Shown piece by piece: positions 3,673 to 13,998 of a DNA stretch of 13,998 nt. The notes beneath the pieces were generated by a model that was not told where the DNA came from, searched no databases, and saw only the letters and a list, made by a program, of their open reading frames with translations. A program made the position numbers and the translations under genes. Source of the DNA: Alphaproteobacteria bacterium (GTDB taxonomy: Bacteria; Pseudomonadota; Alphaproteobacteria; Micropepsales; Micropepsaceae); the NCBI GenBank assembly GCA_026400305.1, contig JAPLPI010000277.1, positions 1-13,998 on the forward strand, written 5' to 3'. The first letter of the stretch is position 1. Every line of letters starts with the position of its first letter.

Positions 3673-3702
3673 TTGACTGGATATTCCGTCCCATGCTATC
3701 CC
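3673..3702 (+). promoter_or_regulatory. Probable mraZ (dcw operon) promoter
   Basis: TTGACTG (3673-3679), 15 bases, then GCTATCCC (3695-3702). The -35 is strong; the -10 keeps GCTA and the final C of GCTANAWC but has two mismatches. Initiation near 3708 would give a leader of about 85 bases. The -10 is embedded in the CCCA repeats, so bound MraZ would cover it. Confidence 0.5.
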
Positions 3703-3717
3703 ATACTGTCCCAAAGG
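3688..3717 (-). promoter_or_regulatory. Probable MraZ-binding repeats
   Basis: Three units with a strict 10-base period: GTCCCATGCT (3688), ATCCCATACT (3698), GTCCCAAAGG (3708). CCCA falls at 3690, 3700 and 3710. On the minus strand this is TGGGN repeated with 5-base spacers, the form described for MraZ sites in gammaproteobacteria. A fourth, weaker unit (GTCCATTTGG) begins at 3718. The position over the -10 and start of the mraZ promoter fits autorepression. Confidence 0.7.
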
Positions 3718-3792
3718 GTCCATTTGGCCCGCCGGCGCGCGCGGCCCCTTCGGCCCGCGGAAGGCACTCGGGGGCAGGGGGTATCAGGTGCC

Positions 3793-4263
3793 ATGACCGG
3801 GTTGGTCCAACCGTTCATTTCGACGGTGGCAGGCTCGCTCGACAGCAAGGGGCGGGTTTGCATTCCCGCCACCTATCGCCACCTCCTGGCCGCGCAGAAC
3901 ACCACCGGCGTTTTCGTCTGCCCCAGTTTCATCGATCCGGCGCTGGATGCCTTCGGCCAGGATCTGCTCGACCGCATCAATGCACGTCTCGCGGGTCAGG
4001 ACCCGTTTTTCTCCGCCAGCTTCGATGACGAAGCCACCGCCCTGATCGCGCGCACCCAGTCGCTGCCGATCGACGAGAATGGCCGCGTGCGCATTCCCGA
4101 CGCGATGATCGAACATGCCGGCCTGAAGGACAAAATCGTCTTCGTCGGCAAGGCGCAGAAATTCCAGATCTGGGACGAAGCCCGCTACGCGCCCATCGAG
4201 GCCGAAGCGCTGGCGCGGGTGAAGGCCAAAATGGAACGCGCCCGCAGCGGGGAGGCGTCATGA
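3793..4263 (+). CDS. mraZ: Transcriptional regulator MraZ
   Basis: A 156-residue protein with two AbrB-like (MraZ) repeats. The first has DSKGRVCIP at 17-25 and the second DENGRVRIP at 94-102; this DxxGRxxxP signature is diagnostic for the family. MraZ forms ring-shaped oligomers and represses its own dcw promoter in bacteria where it has been tested. I chose ATG 3793 because it starts just ahead of the first repeat ([17 protein letters not shown]). The frame is open further upstream, but that would run through the promoter and operator. A weak CAGG lies just before the start. The last codons overlap rsmH as ATGA. The three phased CCCA repeats about 80-100 bases upstream are its likely target. 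Confidence 0.95.
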
Positions 4264-5168
4264 GCGGCCATATCCCCGTGATGCTGAACGAAGTGCTGGA
4301 AATGCTTTCGCCGCGCGACGGCGCATCCTATGTCGACGGCACTTTTGGCGGCGGCGGTTATGCCAGCGCCATCCTGGAAGCGGCCGATTGCACGGTGCTG
4401 GGCATCGACCGCGATCCCGACGCCATCGCGCGTGGCCAGACGCTGGTGGAACGTTTCGCCGGACGCCTGACCCTGGTGCAGGGCGAGTTCTCCTGCATGG
4501 ACCAGTTCGCGCAGGAGAGCGACGGCGTGGTGCTGGACCTGGGCGCGTCGTCCTTCCAGTTCGACCAGTCGGCGCGCGGTTTCTCGTTTCGCGAAGATGG
4601 ACCGCTGGACATGCGCATGAGCCTGTCGGGGGAAAGCGCCGCCGACTTCGTGAACACCGCCGACGAACGCACCCTCAGCCTGACCATCTCGCGCTACGGC
4701 GAAGAGAAAAACGCCCGCCGCATCGCCCGCGCCATCATCGCCGCGCGCCCCGTCACCGGCACCGCGCAGCTGGCCGCCATCGTGTCGGAAGCGCAGGGGC
4801 CCGCCGCCTTGCGTCACGCCATCCATCCGGCCACCCGCACCTTCCAGGCGCTGCGCATCCATGTGAATGACGAACTGGGCGAGCTGGAACGCGGCCTGGA
4901 TGCGGCGCTGAAGATCCTGAAGCCGCAAGGCCGGCTGGTGGTTGTGTCCTTCCACAGCCTGGAAGACCGCATGGTCAAGCGCTTCCTGACAGAACGTTCG
5001 ACAGCTGCGCCGCGCGCCTCGCGTCACGCCCCCGCCGATACGCGCGCCCATGGCGCGGCGTTCCAGCTTCTCACCACCCGTCCGCGCACACCCACGGACG
5101 AGGAAATCAGCAGCAATCCTAGAGCCCGGTCCGCCAAGTTGCGCGCTGGCCTGAAACTGGCGGCATAG
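4260..5168 (+). CDS. rsmH: 16S rRNA (cytosine(1402)-N4)-methyltransferase
   Basis: A 302-residue RsmH (MraW), an AdoMet-dependent enzyme that N4-methylates C1402 in the decoding centre of the small ribosomal subunit. Visible family motifs are [11 protein letters not shown] (4-14), the AdoMet loop [10 protein letters not shown] (25-34), the acidic strand end GIDRDPDAI (48-56), [20 protein letters not shown] (90-109), GPLDMRM (114-120), [14 protein letters not shown] (146-159), [18 protein letters not shown] (189-206) and [16 protein letters not shown] (227-242). LGASS replaces the more usual LGVSS, a mild change. The start overlaps the mraZ stop by 4 bases, with GGGGAGG (about 4250-4256) inside mraZ as ribosome site. 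Confidence 0.97.
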
Positions 5169-5177
5169 GAGAGCATC

Positions 5178-5549
5178 ATGGTTCGTATCCTGAACTTCTT
5201 CTGCTTGGCGTTGATGGCCTTCACAATCCTGGCGCTCTACCGCGTCTCCGAAAAAACCCGCGTCGCCCACATGGAGCTGAACCAGGTCAAGAGCCAGATC
5301 GCCCGGGAGCGCGGCACCATCGGCGTGCTGGAAACCGAATGGCAGCATGTGGCGTCGCCGGACCGCATCCAGCAGCTGGCGCAGGCGCGGCTTGGCATGG
5401 CGGACAGCGCATCGGTGCAGCTGAGCTCCTTCGACCAGATCCCGCGCCGCGGCGTCGAAGCCCCGCTGAACAACAGCCCAGTCCACAATGCCAGTGCGCA
5501 GTTGCCTGTTGCCGCGCCGGCGCCCGCACCAACCGCTCCCAATATGTGA
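5178..5549 (+). CDS. ftsL: Cell division protein FtsL
   Basis: A 123-residue small bitopic protein. It has a short cytoplasmic start, one membrane helix at about 4-21 (ILNFFCLALMAFTILALY), a coiled-coil-like stretch at about 25-57, and the conserved end of the periplasmic domain LETEWQHVASPDRIQQLAQA (51-70) followed by RLGM. The last 30 residues are proline- and alanine-rich and probably disordered. In known divisomes FtsL pairs with FtsB and, with FtsQ, activates FtsWI. The call rests on this architecture, on the position between rsmH and ftsI, and on the LETEW/RLGM motif. TAGGAGA (5166-5172), which overlaps the rsmH stop, is a good ribosome site. Confidence 0.9.
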   Translation: MVRILNFFCLALMAFTILALYRVSEKTRVAHMELNQVKSQIARERGTIGVLETEWQHVASPDRIQQLAQARLGMADSASVQLSSFDQIPRRGVEAPLNNSPVHNASAQLPVAAPAPAPTAPNM

Positions 5550-5553
5550 GGAT

Positions 5554-7152
5554 ATGAGCGAGACTATCCACCAACGGCGCATCATTATCGGAGCGGTCAT
5601 CTGTGTCGCCGCTTTCGCGCTGGTGGGAATCCGTCTCGTCCATGTCACCCTGCTGAAATCCTGGGAAGGCGGGCGCGCCGCCACCGCCGTGGTGGCCCGC
5701 GCCGACCTGACCGACCGCAATGGCGAGCTTCTGGCGCGCGACCTGCCGGTCAAGGATCTCTATGCCCGTCCCGTCGTGTTCTGGGACAAGCGCGAAGCGG
5801 CGCGAGGCCTGGCCGCCGCAACCGGCGCCGACGAACGCCGCCTGCTGAACGGCTTCAACAACGCCAAGCATCCCTATGTGCTGGTGGCCCGCCAGATCAC
5901 GCCCGCCACCGAGGCCCGGGTGATGCATCTGGGCCTGCCCGGCCTGGAGTTCGAAGCTGGCGGCAAGCGCTATTATCCCGATGGCCGCAATGCCGCGCAG
6001 GTGATTGGCGTCACTGATGCCGACAATGCCGGTGTCAGCGGTCTTGAGCTGGGCCTGCAGGATCAGATCCAGAAGGCGGCCGGCGGAAAGGTCGCCACCT
6101 CGATCGACATGCGCGTGCAATATATCCTATCGCATGAGGTCAAGCAGGCCCGCGATACCTTCACGGCCCACGCCGCCGGCGGCATCGTGATGGACGTCAA
6201 TACCGGCGAAGTGCTGGCCATGACCTCGCAGCCGGATTTCGATCCCAACCAGCGCAGGCTGGGCGAGCATGACTCCACCCGAAACATCATGGCCCAGGAC
6301 GTCTACGAGCTGGGCTCCATCTTCAAGATCCTGACCTTCACCATGGCGCTGGAGGATCGCACCCTCAAAAGCCTGGACGAGGTTTTCCCCATCGGCCAGG
6401 GCATGAAGCTGGGCAAGTTCACCATCCATGAAGCCGAACACATGCCGACGACGTTGCCGGCGCGCGATATCCTGGCCCAGTCTTCCAACATCGGCACCAG
6501 CCAGATCGCGCTTCGCAGTGGCTCGACCCGCCAGCGCGATTTCCTCACCCATGTGGGGATTCTCAAGCCGCTGAAGAGCGAGTTGCCGGAAAGCGCGCGG
6601 CCACTCTATCCGCCCAGCAGCAACTGGGGCGAAATCGCCACCGCCACCATCGGCTTTGGCCAGGGCATCTCGGTGACGCCGCTGTCCTTCGTCGCGGCCG
6701 CGGCGCAAGTGGTGAATGGCGGACGCAGCATCGTCCCGACATTCGTGAAGCAGGAGAAGGCCGATCTGCGCGGCGAGCAGATCATCCGCCCGGAGGTTTC
6801 GGAGCAGATGCGGGACCTGCTGCGCTATGTCGTGACCAACGGTTCGGGCAAGCGCGCCGACGTCGTCGGTTATGACGTGGGCGGCAAGACCGGCTCGGCC
6901 CAGGTGCCGGGGCCTGGCGGCCGGTATATTCCGCACGCGCTGCGCACCAGCTTCTACGGCGTGTTCCCGGCGCACAATCCCCGCTATGTCGTGTACATCC
7001 TGCTGGATCAGCCGCATGGCACAAAGGCGACGGCCGGTTTCGCGCTGGCCGGCTGGACGGCGGCGCCCGCTGTCGGCCGGGTCATCGCCCGGATCGCGCC
7101 ACTGCTGGGCGTGCCCAACGTTCCCCCACCGACCAGGCTGGCCTCGCAATGA
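5554..7152 (+). CDS. ftsI: Septal peptidoglycan transpeptidase FtsI (PBP3)
   Basis: A 532-residue class B penicillin-binding protein that crosslinks septal peptidoglycan with FtsW. Layout: a cytoplasmic start, a membrane helix at about 10-30, a pedestal domain (ADLTDRNGELLARDLP at 50-65; RYYPDGRNAAQVIGVTDADN at 139-158, then AGVSGLE), and a transpeptidase domain. The active-site motifs are complete: SxxK as S255-K258 (YELGSIFK), SxN as S310-N312 (AQSSNIG) and KTG at 445-447 (GGKTGSAQ). I took ATG 5554, 4 bases after the ftsL stop with GAGG just upstream. The frame extends back to 5488, but that adds an arginine-rich stretch overlapping ftsL. The stop overlaps murE (ATGA). Confidence 0.96.
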   Translation: MSETIHQRRIIIGAVICVAAFALVGIRLVHVTLLKSWEGGRAATAVVARADLTDRNGELLARDLPVKDLYARPVVFWDKREAARGLAAATGADERRLLNGFNNAKHPYVLVARQITPATEARVMHLGLPGLEFEAGGKRYYPDGRNAAQVIGVTDADNAGVSGLELGLQDQIQKAAGGKVATSIDMRVQYILSHEVKQARDTFTAHAAGGIVMDVNTGEVLAMTSQPDFDPNQRRLGEHDSTRNIMAQDVYELGSIFKILTFTMALEDRTLKSLDEVFPIGQGMKLGKFTIHEAEHMPTTLPARDILAQSSNIGTSQIALRSGSTRQRDFLTHVGILKPLKSELPESARPLYPPSSNWGEIATATIGFGQGISVTPLSFVAAAAQVVNGGRSIVPTFVKQEKADLRGEQIIRPEVSEQMRDLLRYVVTNGSGKRADVVGYDVGGKTGSAQVPGPGGRYIPHALRTSFYGVFPAHNPRYVVYILLDQPHGTKATAGFALAGWTAAPAVGRVIARIAPLLGVPNVPPPTRLASQ

Positions 7153-8612
7153 CGCCACAATCACATTCGACAATGGCGAGCATCAAAGGCTTTGCAGGCC
7201 TTACAATTACAGGCTTGGCAAGCGACAGCCGCAAAGTGAAGCCGGGTTACCTGTTCGCGGCGCTGGCCGGGACCAAAACCGATGGTGCGCGCTTTGTGAA
7301 GGATGCCGTGGCGCGCGGCGCCGTGGCGGTGCTGGGTGCGCCGGTCCTGGCCGATGATGTGGCGGCGCTGGGCGTGCGTTTCATTCCCGATGAAAATCCC
7401 CGCGCCGGCCTGGCGCGCTATGCCGCCGCCTTTTTCGCCAGTCAGCCCGACATCGTTGCGGCCGTTACCGGCACCAAAGGCAAGTCTTCCATCGTCGCTT
7501 TCCTGCGCGAGATCTGGACGGCGCTGGGCAAGTCGGCGGCCAGCCTGGGGACTGTCGGCGTTACCGGTCCGAACGGCACCATCCCGCTGTCGCACACCAC
7601 GCCCGATCCGGTGGAAATCCATGAACTGCTGGCGACGCTGAAAGCCGATGGCGTGGACCATCTGGCACTCGAGGCGTCCAGCCACGGGCTGGACCAGCAT
7701 CGGCTGGACGGCGTGCGGATCAAGGGTTGCGGCTTCACCACCATCACCCGTGACCATATGGATTATCATCCGACGTTTGAGGATTACCTGACCGCCAAGC
7801 TGCGGCTGTTCTCCGAAGTGGTGGCCGATGGCGGCGTGGCGGTCATCAATGCCGATGCCGATCATGCGGATCGTTTCATCGCCGCGGCGCAGGCGCGCGG
7901 GCTGAAGCTGATTACCGTGGGCCGCAAGGGCGAAACCATCCAGCTGGATCGTCGCGAAGACCGCGGCGGCGCCCAGGCGCTGACCCTGCATTACCAGGGC
8001 AAAATTTATTACGTCGAACTGCCGCAAGCCGGCGCCTTCCAGGCCTCGAATGCGCTGGTAGCGGCGGGCCTTGCGATTGGCCTGGGCGAGGACTCCGCCA
8101 AGGTGTTCGCCGCGCTGGAGCATCTGAAGGGTGCGCCGGGGCGGATGGAGAAGGTTGCCTTCGCCGCTTCGGGCGCGCCGGTCTATGTCGATTACGCTCA
8201 TACCCCGGATTCGCTCGAAAAAGTGCTGGAGGCCCTGCGCCCCCACACCGCGGGCCGGCTGCATGTCGTGTTCGGCTGTGGCGGCGACCGGGACAAGGGC
8301 AAACGCCCGCTGATGGGCGCGGCCGCTGTGAAGCTGGCCGACGACGTGATCGTCACCGACGACAATCCCCGCACCGAGGATGCCGCCACCATCCGGGCCG
8401 CGATCCTGGCGGCGGCGCCGGGCGCGCGGGAGATCGGTGACAGGGCCGAGGCCATCCGCGCGGCCATGGCCGACCTGAAGACCGGCGATGTGCTGATCAT
8501 CGCCGGCAAGGGCCATGAGACGGGCCAGTATATAAAGGGCGAAGTGTTCCCCTTTTCGGACCGCGAGCAGGCGATTGCCGCCGCGCTGGCTTTGGGAGGC
8601 CGCGCGACATGA
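7149..8612 (+). CDS. murE: UDP-MurNAc-L-Ala-D-Glu:meso-diaminopimelate ligase
   Basis: A 487-residue Mur ligase that adds the third stem-peptide residue in the cytoplasm. N-terminal UDP-binding part: ITGLASDSRKVKPGYLFAAL (20-39). ATP loop: VTGTKGKSS (106-114). Central domain: LEASSHGLDQHRLDG (174-188) and TRDHMDYHPTFEDYLTAKLR (200-219), with K217 as the expected carbamylated lysine. C-terminal domain: VYVDYAHTPDSLEKVL (345-360), GCGGDRDKGKRPLMG (376-390) and DDNPRTED (404-411). The DNPR motif (405-408) is the signature of meso-diaminopimelate rather than lysine specificity. The ATP loop carries K110 where Asn (or Ser in rhizobia) is common. The start overlaps the ftsI stop by 4 bases. Confidence 0.97.
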   Translation: MTPQSHSTMASIKGFAGLTITGLASDSRKVKPGYLFAALAGTKTDGARFVKDAVARGAVAVLGAPVLADDVAALGVRFIPDENPRAGLARYAAAFFASQPDIVAAVTGTKGKSSIVAFLREIWTALGKSAASLGTVGVTGPNGTIPLSHTTPDPVEIHELLATLKADGVDHLALEASSHGLDQHRLDGVRIKGCGFTTITRDHMDYHPTFEDYLTAKLRLFSEVVADGGVAVINADADHADRFIAAAQARGLKLITVGRKGETIQLDRREDRGGAQALTLHYQGKIYYVELPQAGAFQASNALVAAGLAIGLGEDSAKVFAALEHLKGAPGRMEKVAFAASGAPVYVDYAHTPDSLEKVLEALRPHTAGRLHVVFGCGGDRDKGKRPLMGAAAVKLADDVIVTDDNPRTEDAATIRAAILAAAPGAREIGDRAEAIRAAMADLKTGDVLIIAGKGHETGQYIKGEVFPFSDREQAIAAALALGGRAT

Positions 8613-9967
8613 GCCTGTGGTCGTCCGCCGAAGCTGAAAATGCCACTCTGGGCAAGGCGTCCAAGCCGTTCGCCGTGAACGGGCTGTCGATCGACACTCG
8701 CACCATCCAGGAAGGCGACTTGTTCGTCGCCCTGAAGGGCGACAATCGCGACGGCCATGATTTCGTGCGCGCCGCGTTCGAGGCCAAGGCCGGTGCGGCC
8801 TTGGTGACCCACACGCTCGATGGCGTCACGGGCGCGCTGCTCACCGTCGGTCATACCCAGCGCGGCCTGGAAGACCTGGCGCGCGCCGCCCGGGCGCGCA
8901 GCAACGCAAAGATTCTGGCCGTCACCGGCAGCGCCGGAAAGACCACCACCAAGGAAATCCTGCGCCTAGCCTGCAATGCGCTGGGCCGCACCCATGCCAG
9001 CGCCGCCAGCTACAACAATCACTGGGGCGTGCCGCTGTCGCTGGCTGCCCTGCCGCGCGACGCCGAATATGGCGTCTTTGAAGTGGGCATGAACCATTTC
9101 GGCGAACTGCGGAATCTGGTCAGCTTTGTGCGTCCGCATGTGGCGCTGATCACCACAATAGCGCCCGCGCATCTGGAATTCTTCGGCAACTGCGAATCCA
9201 TCGCCGATACCAAGTCGGAAATCTTCGAAGGCTTGCTCCCGGGTGGCGCCGGTCTTATCCCGTCGGACAGCGCATATGCCGACCGCCTGAAGGCGCGCGC
9301 CAGGCAGGCGCAGGTCTCGCGCATCGTCACCTTCGGCAGGGACGGCGACGCCAGGCTGATTTCCCTTGCTCCCGATGGCGAAGGCATGCGCGTCAAGGCT
9401 GATATCCTGGGCGTGGTGGTGGATTGCCATGTCGGCGCGCCGGGCGAGCATATCGCCCAGAATGTGGTGGGCGCGCTTGCTGCCATCGCGCTGCTGGAAG
9501 GCGACGTGCTGAACGCCGCCGCCGCGCTGAAGAACTTCACGGCCTTGAAGGGTCGCGGCGCGCGCTTTGACGCCAATGGCATCTCGGTCATCGACGAAAG
9601 TTATAACGCCAATCCGGCCTCCATGGCGGCGGCGCTGGCGCTGCTCGGCGACGCCAAGGGCCGCAAGATCGCGGTGCTGGGCGACATGCTGGAAATGGGC
9701 GAGGGCGGTATCGCCCATCACGCCGGCCTGGCCGCGCCGATTGACGCGAACAAGACCGACCTGGTGTTCGCCAGCGGCGCCCAGATGAAGGCGCTGTGGG
9801 AAGCGTTGCCGGCGTCGCGCCGCGGCGGCTATGCCGAAAGCTCGACCGCCCTGCTGCCGATGGTGACCAAGGCATTGAAATCCGGCGACACCGTGCTGGT
9901 CAAAGGCTCCAACGGAGCGCGCATGTCCGTGATTGTGGAATCTCTCAAGCAAGAGAAGGGCGCCTGA
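8609..9967 (+). CDS. murF: UDP-MurNAc-tripeptide:D-alanyl-D-alanine ligase
   Basis: A 452-residue Mur ligase that attaches D-Ala-D-Ala to finish the cytoplasmic pentapeptide. It shows the N-terminal segment [20 protein letters not shown] (25-44), the ATP loop [12 protein letters not shown] (105-116), [12 protein letters not shown] (134-145), [13 protein letters not shown] (158-170), APAHLEFFG (185-193), and the C-terminal-domain motif [11 protein letters not shown] (329-339). Length is typical for the family. It overlaps murE by ATGA and has GGGAGG (8594-8599) as ribosome site. Its TGA shares one base with the mraY ATG. Confidence 0.97.
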
Positions 9968-11058
9968 TGCTTTATTACCTGTCGCTTCTCACCCATACCG
10001 ACCAGCTCGCCTTCTTCCGCCTGTTCAAATATCTCAGCTTCCGCTCGGTGGGCGCCATTGTCACCGCGCTGATGATCGCCTTCATGATCAATCCCATGCT
10101 GATCCGCTGGCTGAAGGTGAAGCAGGGCAAGGGCCAGCCGATCCGCGCCGACGGTCCCCAGCGCCACATTCTGGAAAAGGCCGGCACCCCGACCATGGGC
10201 GGGTTGCTCATCCTGATTCCCTGGATCAGCTCCACCGTGCTGTGGGCCAGCCTGTCCAACCGCTATGTCTGGATCGCGCTGCTGGTGACGGTCAGCTATG
10301 GCCTGTTGGGATTTCTGGACGACTATTATAAGGTGACCAAGCGCACCTCGGACGGGCTCTCTGGGCGCACCAGCCTGCTGATCGAGTTCGGCGTGGCCGC
10401 GATCGCCACCTGGCTGATCATGCAGTCCGAGACGCCGGCCCTGTCGGGCGCGCTGGCGGTGCCCTTCTTCAAGGCGGCGCTGTTGCCGCTGGGCCTGTTC
10501 TTCCTGGTGGTCGGCGTCTTTGTCATCGCGGGCGCCGCCAATGCGGTGAACTTCACCGACGGGCTGGACGGTCTGGCCATCATGCCGGTGATGATCGCGG
10601 CCGCGACCTTCACCCTGATCGTCTATCTGGTGGGCAACGAGAAATTCGCCGCCTATCTGCAGATTCCCTACATCGAATATTCCGGCGAGCTGGCGATTTT
10701 CCTGGCGGCGCTGGTGGGCGCTGGGCTCGGCTTTCTTTGGTACAACGCCCCGCCCGCGGCCATCTTCATGGGTGATACCGGTTCATTGCCGCTGGGCGGC
10801 GCGTTGGGCGTGGTCGCCGTGTCGGTCAAGCACGAGATCGTGCTGGGCCTGGTGGGCGGTTTGTTCGTGCTGGAAACCGTCTCCGTCGTGGTGCAGGTGG
10901 TTTCCTTCAAGCTGACCGGCAAGCGCGTCTTCCGGATGGCGCCCATTCATCATCATTATGAACAGCTGGGCTGGACCGAGCCCACCATCGTGATTCGTTT
11001 CTGGATCGTGGCGGTGGTGCTGGCGCTGCTCGGCCTCGCAACCTTGAAGCTTCGCTAG
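9967..11058 (+). CDS. mraY: Phospho-N-acetylmuramoyl-pentapeptide transferase (lipid I synthase)
   Basis: A 363-residue polytopic inner-membrane enzyme, about ten hydrophobic segments, that transfers phospho-MurNAc-pentapeptide from UDP to undecaprenyl phosphate. Signature sites: KAGTPTMGG (71-79), FLDDYYK (116-122) with the paired aspartates D118 and D119, [13 protein letters not shown] (192-204), [18 protein letters not shown] (261-278) with D270, and [10 protein letters not shown] (323-332). These are the magnesium, nucleotide and HHH motifs expected for MraY. I chose ATG 9967 because AGAAGGG lies just before it and because the N-terminus then matches the family (MLYYL...). The frame is open back into murF, but that start has no support. 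The TAG is followed directly by the murD ATG. Confidence 0.97.
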
Positions 11059-11796
11059 ATGATCCCAAGCCGCGCCTTCGCCAATCGCACCGTCGCCATC
11101 TTCGGCCTGGCCCGCACCGGGCTGGGCGCGGTGCGCGCGCTGGTGGCCGGTGGCACGCGGGTGATTGCCTGGGACGATGACAGCAATGCGCGCGACCTGG
11201 GCGGCCAGGAAGGCGCTAAGCTGATGCCCTGGCGCGAATGGCCGTGGGAAACTATCGCCGCGCTGATCCTGTCGCCCGGCGTGCCGCTGACCCACCCCAA
11301 GCCGCATGGGGTGGTGGAACATGCCAACCGCGCCAAGGTGCGCATCATCGGCGATGTGGAACTGTTCGCCCATGAAATCCGCCCCGATCCGAACGGCAGC
11401 GCCAAGGCGCCCGTGATCGCCATCACCGGCACCAACGGCAAGTCCACCACCACCGCGCTGGTGGGGCACATATTGAATGCCTGCGGCTTCGACGCCCAGA
11501 TCGGCGGCAATATCGGCAAGTCGGTGCTGGAACTGTCGCCGCCTTCGGCCAAGACCATCTATGTGCTGGAAATGTCCAGCTTCCAGATCGACCTGGCGCC
11601 GGGCCTGACACCCGATGGCGGCATCCTGTCCAACCTGTCGCCTGATCACTTCGACCGTCACGGCACGATGGACAATTACGCCGCCATCAAGGCGGCGGCG
11701 CCCAGGCCCCTCCGGTTTCGGTGGGCAAGGTGCTGGGCCGTGGCATCTTCGTGGTGGACTGCACTCTCTATGACGCCATGGGCGCGCGCGCGGTGA
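11059..11796 (+). CDS. murD: murD, N-terminal fragment as the sequence stands
   Basis: Residues 1-211 of this 245-residue frame are genuine MurD. They hold the N-terminal substrate-binding fold with IFGLARTGLGAVRAL (14-28) and LILSPGVPLTHP (69-80), the ATP loop ITGTNGKSTTTALVGHIL (122-139), the IGGNIGKSVLEL loop (148-159), EMSSFQIDLA (171-180), and NLSPDHFDRHGTMDNYAAIK (192-211). From about residue 213 the frame turns to arginine- and tryptophan-rich sequence unlike any Mur ligase (PRPLRFRWARCWAVASSWW), the sign of out-of-frame reading, and stops at 11794-11796. Alone it lacks the catalytic C-terminal domain and should be inactive. Confidence 0.7.
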   Translation: MIPSRAFANRTVAIFGLARTGLGAVRALVAGGTRVIAWDDDSNARDLGGQEGAKLMPWREWPWETIAALILSPGVPLTHPKPHGVVEHANRAKVRIIGDVELFAHEIRPDPNGSAKAPVIAITGTNGKSTTTALVGHILNACGFDAQIGGNIGKSVLELSPPSAKTIYVLEMSSFQIDLAPGLTPDGGILSNLSPDHFDRHGTMDNYAAIKAAAPRPLRFRWARCWAVASSWWTALSMTPWARAR

Positions 11797-12377
11797 AGGT
11801 CATGGACATGGCCACCGCCGCACGCCTGCCCGGCGCGCACAACTGGCAGAATGCGGCGCTGGCCTATGGCGCCGTGCGGCCCTTTATCTCGGACACCAAG
11901 GCGATTGCCGCGGCCATCGCCAGCTTCCCGGGGCTGGCACACCGGATGGAAGATGTCGGCCATATCGGCAAGGCCGCCTTTATCAATGACTCCAAGGCCA
12001 CCAATGCCGACGCGACGGCGCGGGCCTTGGCGGTGTATCCCGACATTTTCTGGATTGCCGGCGGCAAGCCCAAGGAAGGCGGCATTGAAAGCCTTTCCGA
12101 ATTCTTCCCCCGGGTGCGCAAGGCCTATCTGATCGGCGAGGCGGCGCCCGCCTTCGCCCGCACCCTGGACGGCAAGGCGCCTTACGACATGTCTGGCACA
12201 TTGGAGATTGCGGTGGCCAAAGCCGCCGCCGATGTGGCGGCATCTTCGGCGGCGGCGCCCGTGGTGCTGTTGTCGCCGGCCTGCGCCTCCTACGACCAGT
12301 TCAAGGATTTCGAACAGCGCGGCGATGTTTTTCGTAGCCTGGTGTCCAAGCTGCCCCGTGACGTGATGGTGGCATGA
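11721..12377 (+). CDS. murD: murD, C-terminal fragment as the sequence stands
   Basis: This frame holds the end of the central domain and the whole C-terminal domain: ARLPGAHNWQNAALAYGAV, GLAHRMEDVGHIGKAAFIND followed by SKATNADATARAL, FWIAGGKPKEGG, and LLSPACASYDQFKDFEQRGD. Genuine MurD-like sequence in this frame already begins upstream of the first GTG, at about 11700 (AQAPPVS). So GTG 11721 is just the first start-like codon after the break, not an independent start, and no ribosome site precedes it. The last codons overlap ftsW by ATGA. Confidence 0.65.
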   Translation: MGKVLGRGIFVVDCTLYDAMGARAVKVMDMATAARLPGAHNWQNAALAYGAVRPFISDTKAIAAAIASFPGLAHRMEDVGHIGKAAFINDSKATNADATARALAVYPDIFWIAGGKPKEGGIESLSEFFPRVRKAYLIGEAAPAFARTLDGKAPYDMSGTLEIAVAKAAADVAASSAAAPVVLLSPACASYDQFKDFEQRGDVFRSLVSKLPRDVMVA

Positions 12378-13525
12378 TGTTGAACCGTTCGGACAAAAGC
12401 GGGTTTGCCAACTGGTGGTTCACGGTGGACCGGGTTGCGCTGCTTTGCATGCTGGTGCTGGCCGGCATCGGCTTGATGCTGGCCTTTGCCGCCAGCCCCG
12501 CCATCACCGGCGGGCCGCTGTCTGCCGGCGACTTCCGCTATACCGCGCGTCAGGTGGTGTTTGCATTCATGGCCATCGGCATCCTGTGTTCGGTTTCGCT
12601 GCTGTCGTTGCGCCAGATTCGCATGCTGGCGGCGGTGACCTTTGCCTGCGCCCTGATCGGCTCGTTCCTGGTGTTGTTCATCGGCGCCGACGTGCTGGGC
12701 GCGCGCCGTGAGCTGGATCTTGGGCCATTTGCGTTGCAGCCTTCGGAATTCCTCAAGCCTAGTTTCGCGATCCTGGCCGCCGCGGTGCTGGCCGACCGCC
12801 AGCCGCTGGCGATTCCCAAGCCGCTGGTGACGTTTTTGCTGCTGATACCGGCGCTGCTGATCCTGATCCGCCAGCCGGACGTGGGCCAGACCGGCCTGCT
12901 GCTGTGCCTGTGGGGCGCCATGCTGTTCTTCTGGGGCATGTCATTTGTGTGGGTCGGCGCCGGCATCGGCATTGCCGGGGCGCTGGGCTTTGTCGCCTAT
13001 GAAATCTTCCCCCACGTCCATCATCGCGTGGAGCAGTATCTCAGCGAGGACGGTACCGGCTATCAGGCCGGGCTGGCGCTGAAAGCCTTTGCCCATGGCG
13101 GGCTTGCCGGTGTCGGCCCCGGCGCGGGCACCATCAAGTACCGCATTCCCGACGCTCATTCCGACTTCATCTTCGCGGTAGCGGGCGAGGAGTTCGGCTT
13201 CCTGCTGTGCGGATTGATCGCGCTGATGTTCTGCATCCTGACCGTGCGGCTACTGCTGCGTTCGGCTGCTGCCCGCGAGCCTTTCGCGCAATTGGCGGGT
13301 GCGGGCCTGGCCGTGGTGACCGCCGTGCAGGCCTTCATCAACATGGGCGTTGCGGTATCGCTGCTGCCGGCCAAGGGCATGACCTTGCCCTTTATCTCCT
13401 ATGGCGGTTCCTCGCTGTTTGCCGTGGCCCTGACCATGGGCTTTGCCCTGGCGGTCACCCGCCAGCGTCCCAACATCCGCATGGCCACGCGCGATGATCC
13501 CACCTTCTTCATGGTGCGCGCATGA
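12374..13525 (+). CDS. ftsW: Septal peptidoglycan polymerase FtsW (SEDS glycosyltransferase)
   Basis: A 383-residue integral membrane protein with about ten hydrophobic helices and a short cytoplasmic start (MMLNRSDKSGFANWWFTVDR). It polymerises lipid II at the septum together with FtsI. SEDS family markers present are GARRELDLGPFALQPSEFLK (motif after helix 3-4), LIRQPDVGQTGLLL with the aspartate expected to be catalytic, PDAHSDFIFAVAGEEFGFLL, and LLPAKGMTLPFISYGGSSL near the C-terminus. FtsW rather than RodA is inferred from the place between murD and murG. It starts at ATG 12374 in an ATGA overlap with murD; the next codon but one frame over (ATG 12377, second Met) is an equally plausible start. 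Confidence 0.95.
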   Translation: MMLNRSDKSGFANWWFTVDRVALLCMLVLAGIGLMLAFAASPAITGGPLSAGDFRYTARQVVFAFMAIGILCSVSLLSLRQIRMLAAVTFACALIGSFLVLFIGADVLGARRELDLGPFALQPSEFLKPSFAILAAAVLADRQPLAIPKPLVTFLLLIPALLILIRQPDVGQTGLLLCLWGAMLFFWGMSFVWVGAGIGIAGALGFVAYEIFPHVHHRVEQYLSEDGTGYQAGLALKAFAHGGLAGVGPGAGTIKYRIPDAHSDFIFAVAGEEFGFLLCGLIALMFCILTVRLLLRSAAAREPFAQLAGAGLAVVTAVQAFINMGVAVSLLPAKGMTLPFISYGGSSLFAVALTMGFALAVTRQRPNIRMATRDDPTFFMVRA

Positions 13526-13998
13526 GCCTTGTTGTCCTGTCAGCAGGCGGTACCGGCGGGCATCTGTTCCCTGCCCAGGCGCTGGCGGGCGAACTAGTCA
13601 AGCGCGGCTGCGAGATCGTGGTGATGACCGACTCCCGTTTCGCCAATTATGCCACCGCCTTCCCGCGCGCCCGGATCGAGACAGTGCCGTCCTCGCCCTT
13701 TAATGCCATCGCCTCGCCCTTCAAGATCGCGGCCGGCATCGCCATCGCCTTCGCCAAGCTGCTGAAGCTGAGGCCCGATGCGGTGGTCGGCTTCGGTGGC
13801 TATCCCAGCGTGCCGGTGATGGTCGCCGCCAATCTGGCACGCCTGCCCACCGCCATCATCGAGCAGAATGCCGTGGTCGGCCGCGCCAACCGGCTGGTGA
13901 TGAACAAGGTGAAGCTGGTGGCGGCGGCTTTCCCCATCGCCCGCTTCGCGCCCACCGATGCGTCCAAGGTGGTGCTGACCGGCAATCCCCTGCGTCCC
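13522..13998 (+). CDS. murG: UDP-GlcNAc:lipid I GlcNAc transferase MurG (partial, N-terminal part)
   Basis: The first 159 codons; the window ends inside the gene. MurG adds GlcNAc to lipid I on the cytoplasmic membrane face to give lipid II. The N-terminal glycine loop is SAGGTGGHLFPA (7-18), followed by the family segments VVGFGGYPSVPVMVAANLA, IIEQNAVVGRANRLV and VLTGNPLRP. The usual HEQN motif reads IEQN here; Glu, Gln and Asn are kept. The ATG overlaps the ftsW stop by 4 bases. Family members are about 360 residues, so a little under half is visible, and the C-terminal UDP-GlcNAc-binding domain lies outside. Confidence 0.96.
   Translation, partial: MSLVVLSAGGTGGHLFPAQALAGELVKRGCEIVVMTDSRFANYATAFPRARIETVPSSPFNAIASPFKIAAGIAIAFAKLLKLRPDAVVGFGGYPSVPVMVAANLARLPTAIIEQNAVVGRANRLVMNKVKLVAAAFPIARFAPTDASKVVLTGNPLRP

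Follow-up and report, generated by a model that had tools for sequence, protein, structure and literature searches.

The murD gene of the metagenome bin considered here is written in two reading frames, although it stands in a cell-wall cluster whose other frames are open. This raises the question of whether a cell has lost an essential enzyme or whether the break belongs to the record alone. Passages of PMC4816537 describe the Mur ligases as absolutely essential to the survival of bacteria, and also call carbamoylation of Lys198 in Escherichia coli MurD essential for activation. The window, as we call the whole 13,998-nucleotide stretch of DNA that was analysed, is the entire contig C108 of genome G000. 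This bin comprises 438 contigs with a total of 2.28 Mb; its completeness is given as 89.4% and its contamination as 2.34%.

MurD is the UDP-N-acetylmuramoyl-L-alanine--D-glutamate ligase (TIGR01087; structures such as 2jff and 1uag). Both halves of the gene in the window are plain MurD in the usual placement, with a GTNGKST motif, which we take to be nucleotide-binding, and a lysine that by its context would be the equivalent of E. coli Lys198. According to the list of open reading frames, all frames of the surrounding cluster other than murD are open; rsmH, murE and murF score over their curated cut-offs, mraZ, ftsI and ftsW match their families below cut-off, and ftsL, mraY and murG were named by position and translation alone. 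The features are collected in Table 1.

Table 1. Coordinates of murD, its break and the surrounding cluster in the window
Feature	Position	Strand	Remarks
Division/cell-wall cluster	3673..13998	+	mraZ, rsmH, ftsL, ftsI, murE, murF, mraY, (murD), ftsW, murG; murG cut by the contig end
murD	11059-12377	+	Between mraY and ftsW; two frames, switch at 11693/11694
murD 5′ part	11059..11693	+	N-terminal domain and first half of central domain, to the lysine of YAAIK (codon 211); TIGR01087 positions 1-199
Error-like tract	11618..11760	+	Five single transversions: 11618, 11650, 11673, 11710, 11760
Out-of-frame tail of upstream ORF	11692..11796	+	ORF of 245 aa in total; from the ORF list
Junction	11693..11694	+	94 bases of relatives missing; frame switch
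murD 3′ part	11694..12377	+	End of central domain and C-terminal domain; in phase with 11697; TIGR01087 positions 228-440

In the profile search, residues 11-212 of the upstream frame scored 170.9 bits and the 218-aa ORF of the downstream frame 160.7 bits, each below the TIGR01087 cut-off of 211.95 bits, and the N-terminal, central and C-terminal domains of MurD are not found within one reading frame. The original prediction had placed the two halves in different frames and had estimated a loss of 25-32 residues whose length leaves remainder 1 on division by 3, all of which was confirmed. Against G078, the closest same-genus genome found, the left and right alignment blocks are offset by exactly 94 bases, that is 31 codons plus 1 base and hence a change of frame; comparison with G090 gave the same offset of 94. 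The blocks with G078 are gapless over 4003 bases (7691-11693, 92.9% identity) and 2306 bases (11693-13998, 94.3%), the 94-base loss being the sole indel in 6.3 kb at 93-94% identity. A chimera of two distant organisms was considered and rejected, both flanks matching G078 in order and at similar identity. As to how the bases were lost, the proposed deletion between short GC-rich repeats could not be upheld: no direct repeat was found at the break ends, which have 1 base in common in G078 and none in G090, counts to which the window's own intact form might add a few shared bases.

The missing part is the central-domain block directly after the putative carbamylated lysine. It was not found elsewhere in its own genome, where the only matches were the two flanks on C108, and it is present in G078, in G090 and in every one of the 120 listed relatives (the best 120 of 7994 over threshold in a protein search with the G078 MurD). 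The same shortened yet in-frame MurD in close relatives, which the original prediction had named as a finding that would speak against it, did not occur among these best 120 of 7994 either; their only internal gap of at least 10 residues is one of 11 residues in P0029, and it lies elsewhere. The 24 close MurDs (P0001-P0024, the G078 protein being included as P0001) are all 470-475 residues long, and the length is 470-474 residues for P0003 and 19 further listed MurDs at least 94% identical to that of G078. Outside the lost block the window follows these proteins closely: its first part is identical to the G078 MurD at 203 of 211 residues and to P0003 at 207 of 211, and its second part to P0003, the nearest among the matches listed, at 215 of 221.

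The junction itself appears to be private to the window. DNA matches to 11500-11900 exist in 56 of the 60 same-genus genomes (own included), and among the matches listed none except the window's own crosses the junction with more than 24 bases on its short side. A 24-base junction string occurs without mismatch in its own genome only (69 genomes searched). Ten other genomes match it with 2-3 mismatches. In nine, the match lies far from murD or on a different contig; the tenth, G089, has no murD DNA match by which the string could be placed. At the protein level, a MurD match over the cut-off is present in 57 of the 60 genomes that form the family sample, the window's own genome among them. A search with the 245-aa frame found the junction in none of the best 120 of 4258 proteins, in a database that keeps one representative per 90% cluster, behind which a member with the junction may be hidden. 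Likewise, the 7-residue words from the first part of the out-of-frame tail are absent from all 241 proteins compared.

The bases on both sides of the cut are altered as well. Each of the five single transversions in the error-like tract is non-synonymous and changes a residue that is invariant, meaning identical in all 24 close MurDs (353 such residues); the five differ in type and share no single-base pattern. The tract begins 75 bases to the left of the cut and ends 67 bases to its right, and is about as long as one 150-base read. With tract edges placed at the outermost changes after the data had been seen, which favours both of the following tests, the window differs at 6 of the 353 invariant residues, five among the 43 in 11617-11763 and one among the 310 elsewhere, and of the differences from G078 in the aligned genes, non-synonymous transversions make up 5 of the 9 inside the tract and 28 of the 308 outside it (Fisher P 0.0008). 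A scan permutation over murD packed five changes into a 147-base interval in 172 of 50,000 shuffles; when each of the 24 relatives was taken as focal in turn the maximum in such an interval was 3. The signal was weaker in a wider scan over five genes (murF to murG) with three relatives, where 491 of 20,000 shuffles gave five changes within 150 bases. Clusters of private changes are not unique to the junction, since six private amino-acid changes, with no indel, lie in about 50 bases of mraY in G078, which is also a metagenome bin (L045; window counterpart 10036-10084); they may mark another error tract or a genuinely variable site.

A long-dead gene would decay over its whole length. Outside the tract, murD contains no stop and a single change at its 310 invariant residues, so it is unlike an old pseudogene, and this candidate was rejected. 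The rejection is less clear-cut by the three-relative count, in which murD has 6 private amino-acid changes outside the tract versus 8 in the aligned parts of murF, mraY, ftsW and murG together. From these sequences, murD as a whole may be evolving somewhat faster. Non-synonymous changes make up 17 of its 80 differences outside the tract, a share similar to the 22 of 91 in murF and higher than the 2 of 54 in ftsW.

A second error-like tract was met in the same bin while rpoB was being checked. This gene is present as pieces on C180, C437 and C409. The end of C437 (3842-4225, L142) and the start of C180 (1-384, L141) overlap with 14 mismatches in 384 bases, a single overlap having been examined. 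All 14 mismatches are transversions, and 9 of 127 amino acids differ. Compared with five same-genus genomes, C437 alone differs at 8 of the 14 positions, C180 alone at 1 and both at 1, while the relatives themselves vary at 4. Real strain differences are expected to be rich in transitions at third positions, and in the window versus G078 transversions account for 131 of 317 differences. An origin of the overlap from two strains is unlikely, because all 14 mismatches are transversions. Over the whole compared length, private changes were found at 37 of 1203 invariant columns in C180 (15 transversions) and at 51 of 1359 in C437 (27 transversions). Such changes of both kinds along the two contigs fit their distance to the five relatives, and the all-transversion overlap is the telling part. 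Both copies sit at contig ends, which together with the private changes along both contigs leaves a small chance for two strains; the end of C437 looks error-like. The rpoB tract shows that error-like stretches exist in the bin, not that the murD tract is one. A further rpoB start on C409 (22-333, L143) shares about 73% identity with the C180 start where the two match, and C409 probably comes from another organism within the bin.

The suggestion that the cell would need a second MurD or some bypass gained no support, and incompleteness of the bin bears on it. Profile search of the whole genome found the two murD pieces and the related murE and murF, and no second murD. This absence carries little weight, because murC likewise lacks a match of its own there and dnaE is represented by a piece only, matching at profile positions 1-85 at a contig end. 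In G090 and G078 murC comes after murG, and the window contig stops inside murG.

Taken with the state of the bin, the changes around the cut argue for an error-rich local mis-join. We consider that the broken murD very probably arose in the assembly of this low-quality metagenome bin: the record does contain the frame break, but the cell most likely does not. The earlier suggestion of a local assembly collapse is supported as far as a fault of assembly is concerned, an error-like tract bracketing the cut and another occurring in the bin, but not as far as collapse between repeats is concerned. Coverage at 11618-11760 would be thin, the contig there most likely depending on a single read or a handful of reads that were poor or chimeric. 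Such reads, chimeric or mis-joined, would have jumped over 94 bases of the real gene and brought in several base errors, and the assembler would have adopted them as consensus. The living population would then most likely have an ordinary full-length MurD. Assemblers usually require more than one read over a k-mer, which counts against such an origin. Our confidence is tempered slightly by the position of both rpoB copies at contig ends and by the greater number of private changes in murD than in its neighbours by the three-relative count. The case is like known misassemblies in kind: passages of PMC8021871 say that strain mixtures give fragmented assemblies or misassemblies, and passages of PMC10265787 that chimeric reads cause erroneous k-mers and false overlaps, the passages cited not describing the murD locus.

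The main rival is that the 94 bases were really and recently deleted, in a single strain or in a minor part of the cells, and that the assembler caught this form, the cells dying or persisting beside intact siblings with no bypass. The clean cut, collinear with relatives on both sides, would agree with it, and so would the good conservation of the rest of murD at residues invariant in the 24 relatives, as a very recent loss predicts, although by the wider count murD has more private changes than its neighbours. A deletion alone, however, does not explain five non-synonymous transversions at invariant residues around the cut. The MurD step, moreover, is an essential one, as the passages on Mur ligases have it (PMC4816537), next to wall genes with open frames. 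We regard this deletion as unlikely. Another rival is a real deletion in which a double-strand break was mended by an error-prone process that showered the join with mutations; such repair could leave changed bases clustered to the left and right of a cut whose ends have about one base of homology. Passages of PMC9262586 report, for yeast and human cancers, mutation clusters that stem from single strands exposed during break repair. Yet our literature search for bacterial cases yielded one paper, on yeast, the mixture of changes does not follow a single-base pattern and the rpoB overlap of the same bin points to a simpler source, which makes repair of this kind very improbable.

A working MurD in split or shortened form can hardly be entertained more seriously. 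It would require the 245-aa and 218-aa ORFs to cooperate, or a ribosomal frame change at the GCG run, and both frames do run on for long distances without a stop to the left and right of the cut; but no change of frame can restore 31 residues of the central domain, the block is kept by all of the best 120 of 7994 relatives, and the five altered residues flank the cut at sites invariant in the 24 close MurDs. Just as far-fetched, to our mind, is a living lineage that lost MurD function by the 94-base deletion and a mutation shower and kept the rest of its wall cluster, relying on an unrecognised enzyme for D-glutamate ligation or on life without a wall. If the loss were real, the indispensability of MurD in walled bacteria would be called into question. 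An artefact, our preferred reading, makes the locus mainly a warning about seemingly dead essential genes in fragmented bins. Even where there are no reads, such a gene can be assessed by whether private changes crowd at invariant sites near the break and whether similar tracts occur at contig overlaps of the same bin.

Two other metagenome murD genes are frameshifted like that of the window, P0123 (269 aa, on a 24 kb contig) and P0169 (279 aa, on a 113 kb contig). They leave the MurD frame near residues 216-220, within about 10 residues of the break in the window. Unlike it, their tails fit a small indel and no 94-base loss, as judged by eye against the other frames of G078, and neither holds the junction of the window. 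Among the 120 shorter MurD sequences listed, many of which were probably cut off by contig ends, the end points are scattered between residues 125 and 450 and past the latter. Of the 120, 18 fall in the interval 200-224, and five leave MurD near residues 213-220 and continue into an unrelated tail of more than 10 residues. A hotspot for frame breaks at this residue of murD was considered and rejected on these listed sequences, though there may be a mild one.

In another genome of the same genus, G049 (3.0 Mb, about 10 contigs, 95% complete), neither MurD nor MurC gave a match over the family cut-off; the whole cluster is probably missing from that assembly. Upstream of the cell-wall cluster, the window carries a class A RNase P RNA (RF00010, 333.6 bits) at 1556-1920, and the gene preceding it matches AmpD below the cut-off.
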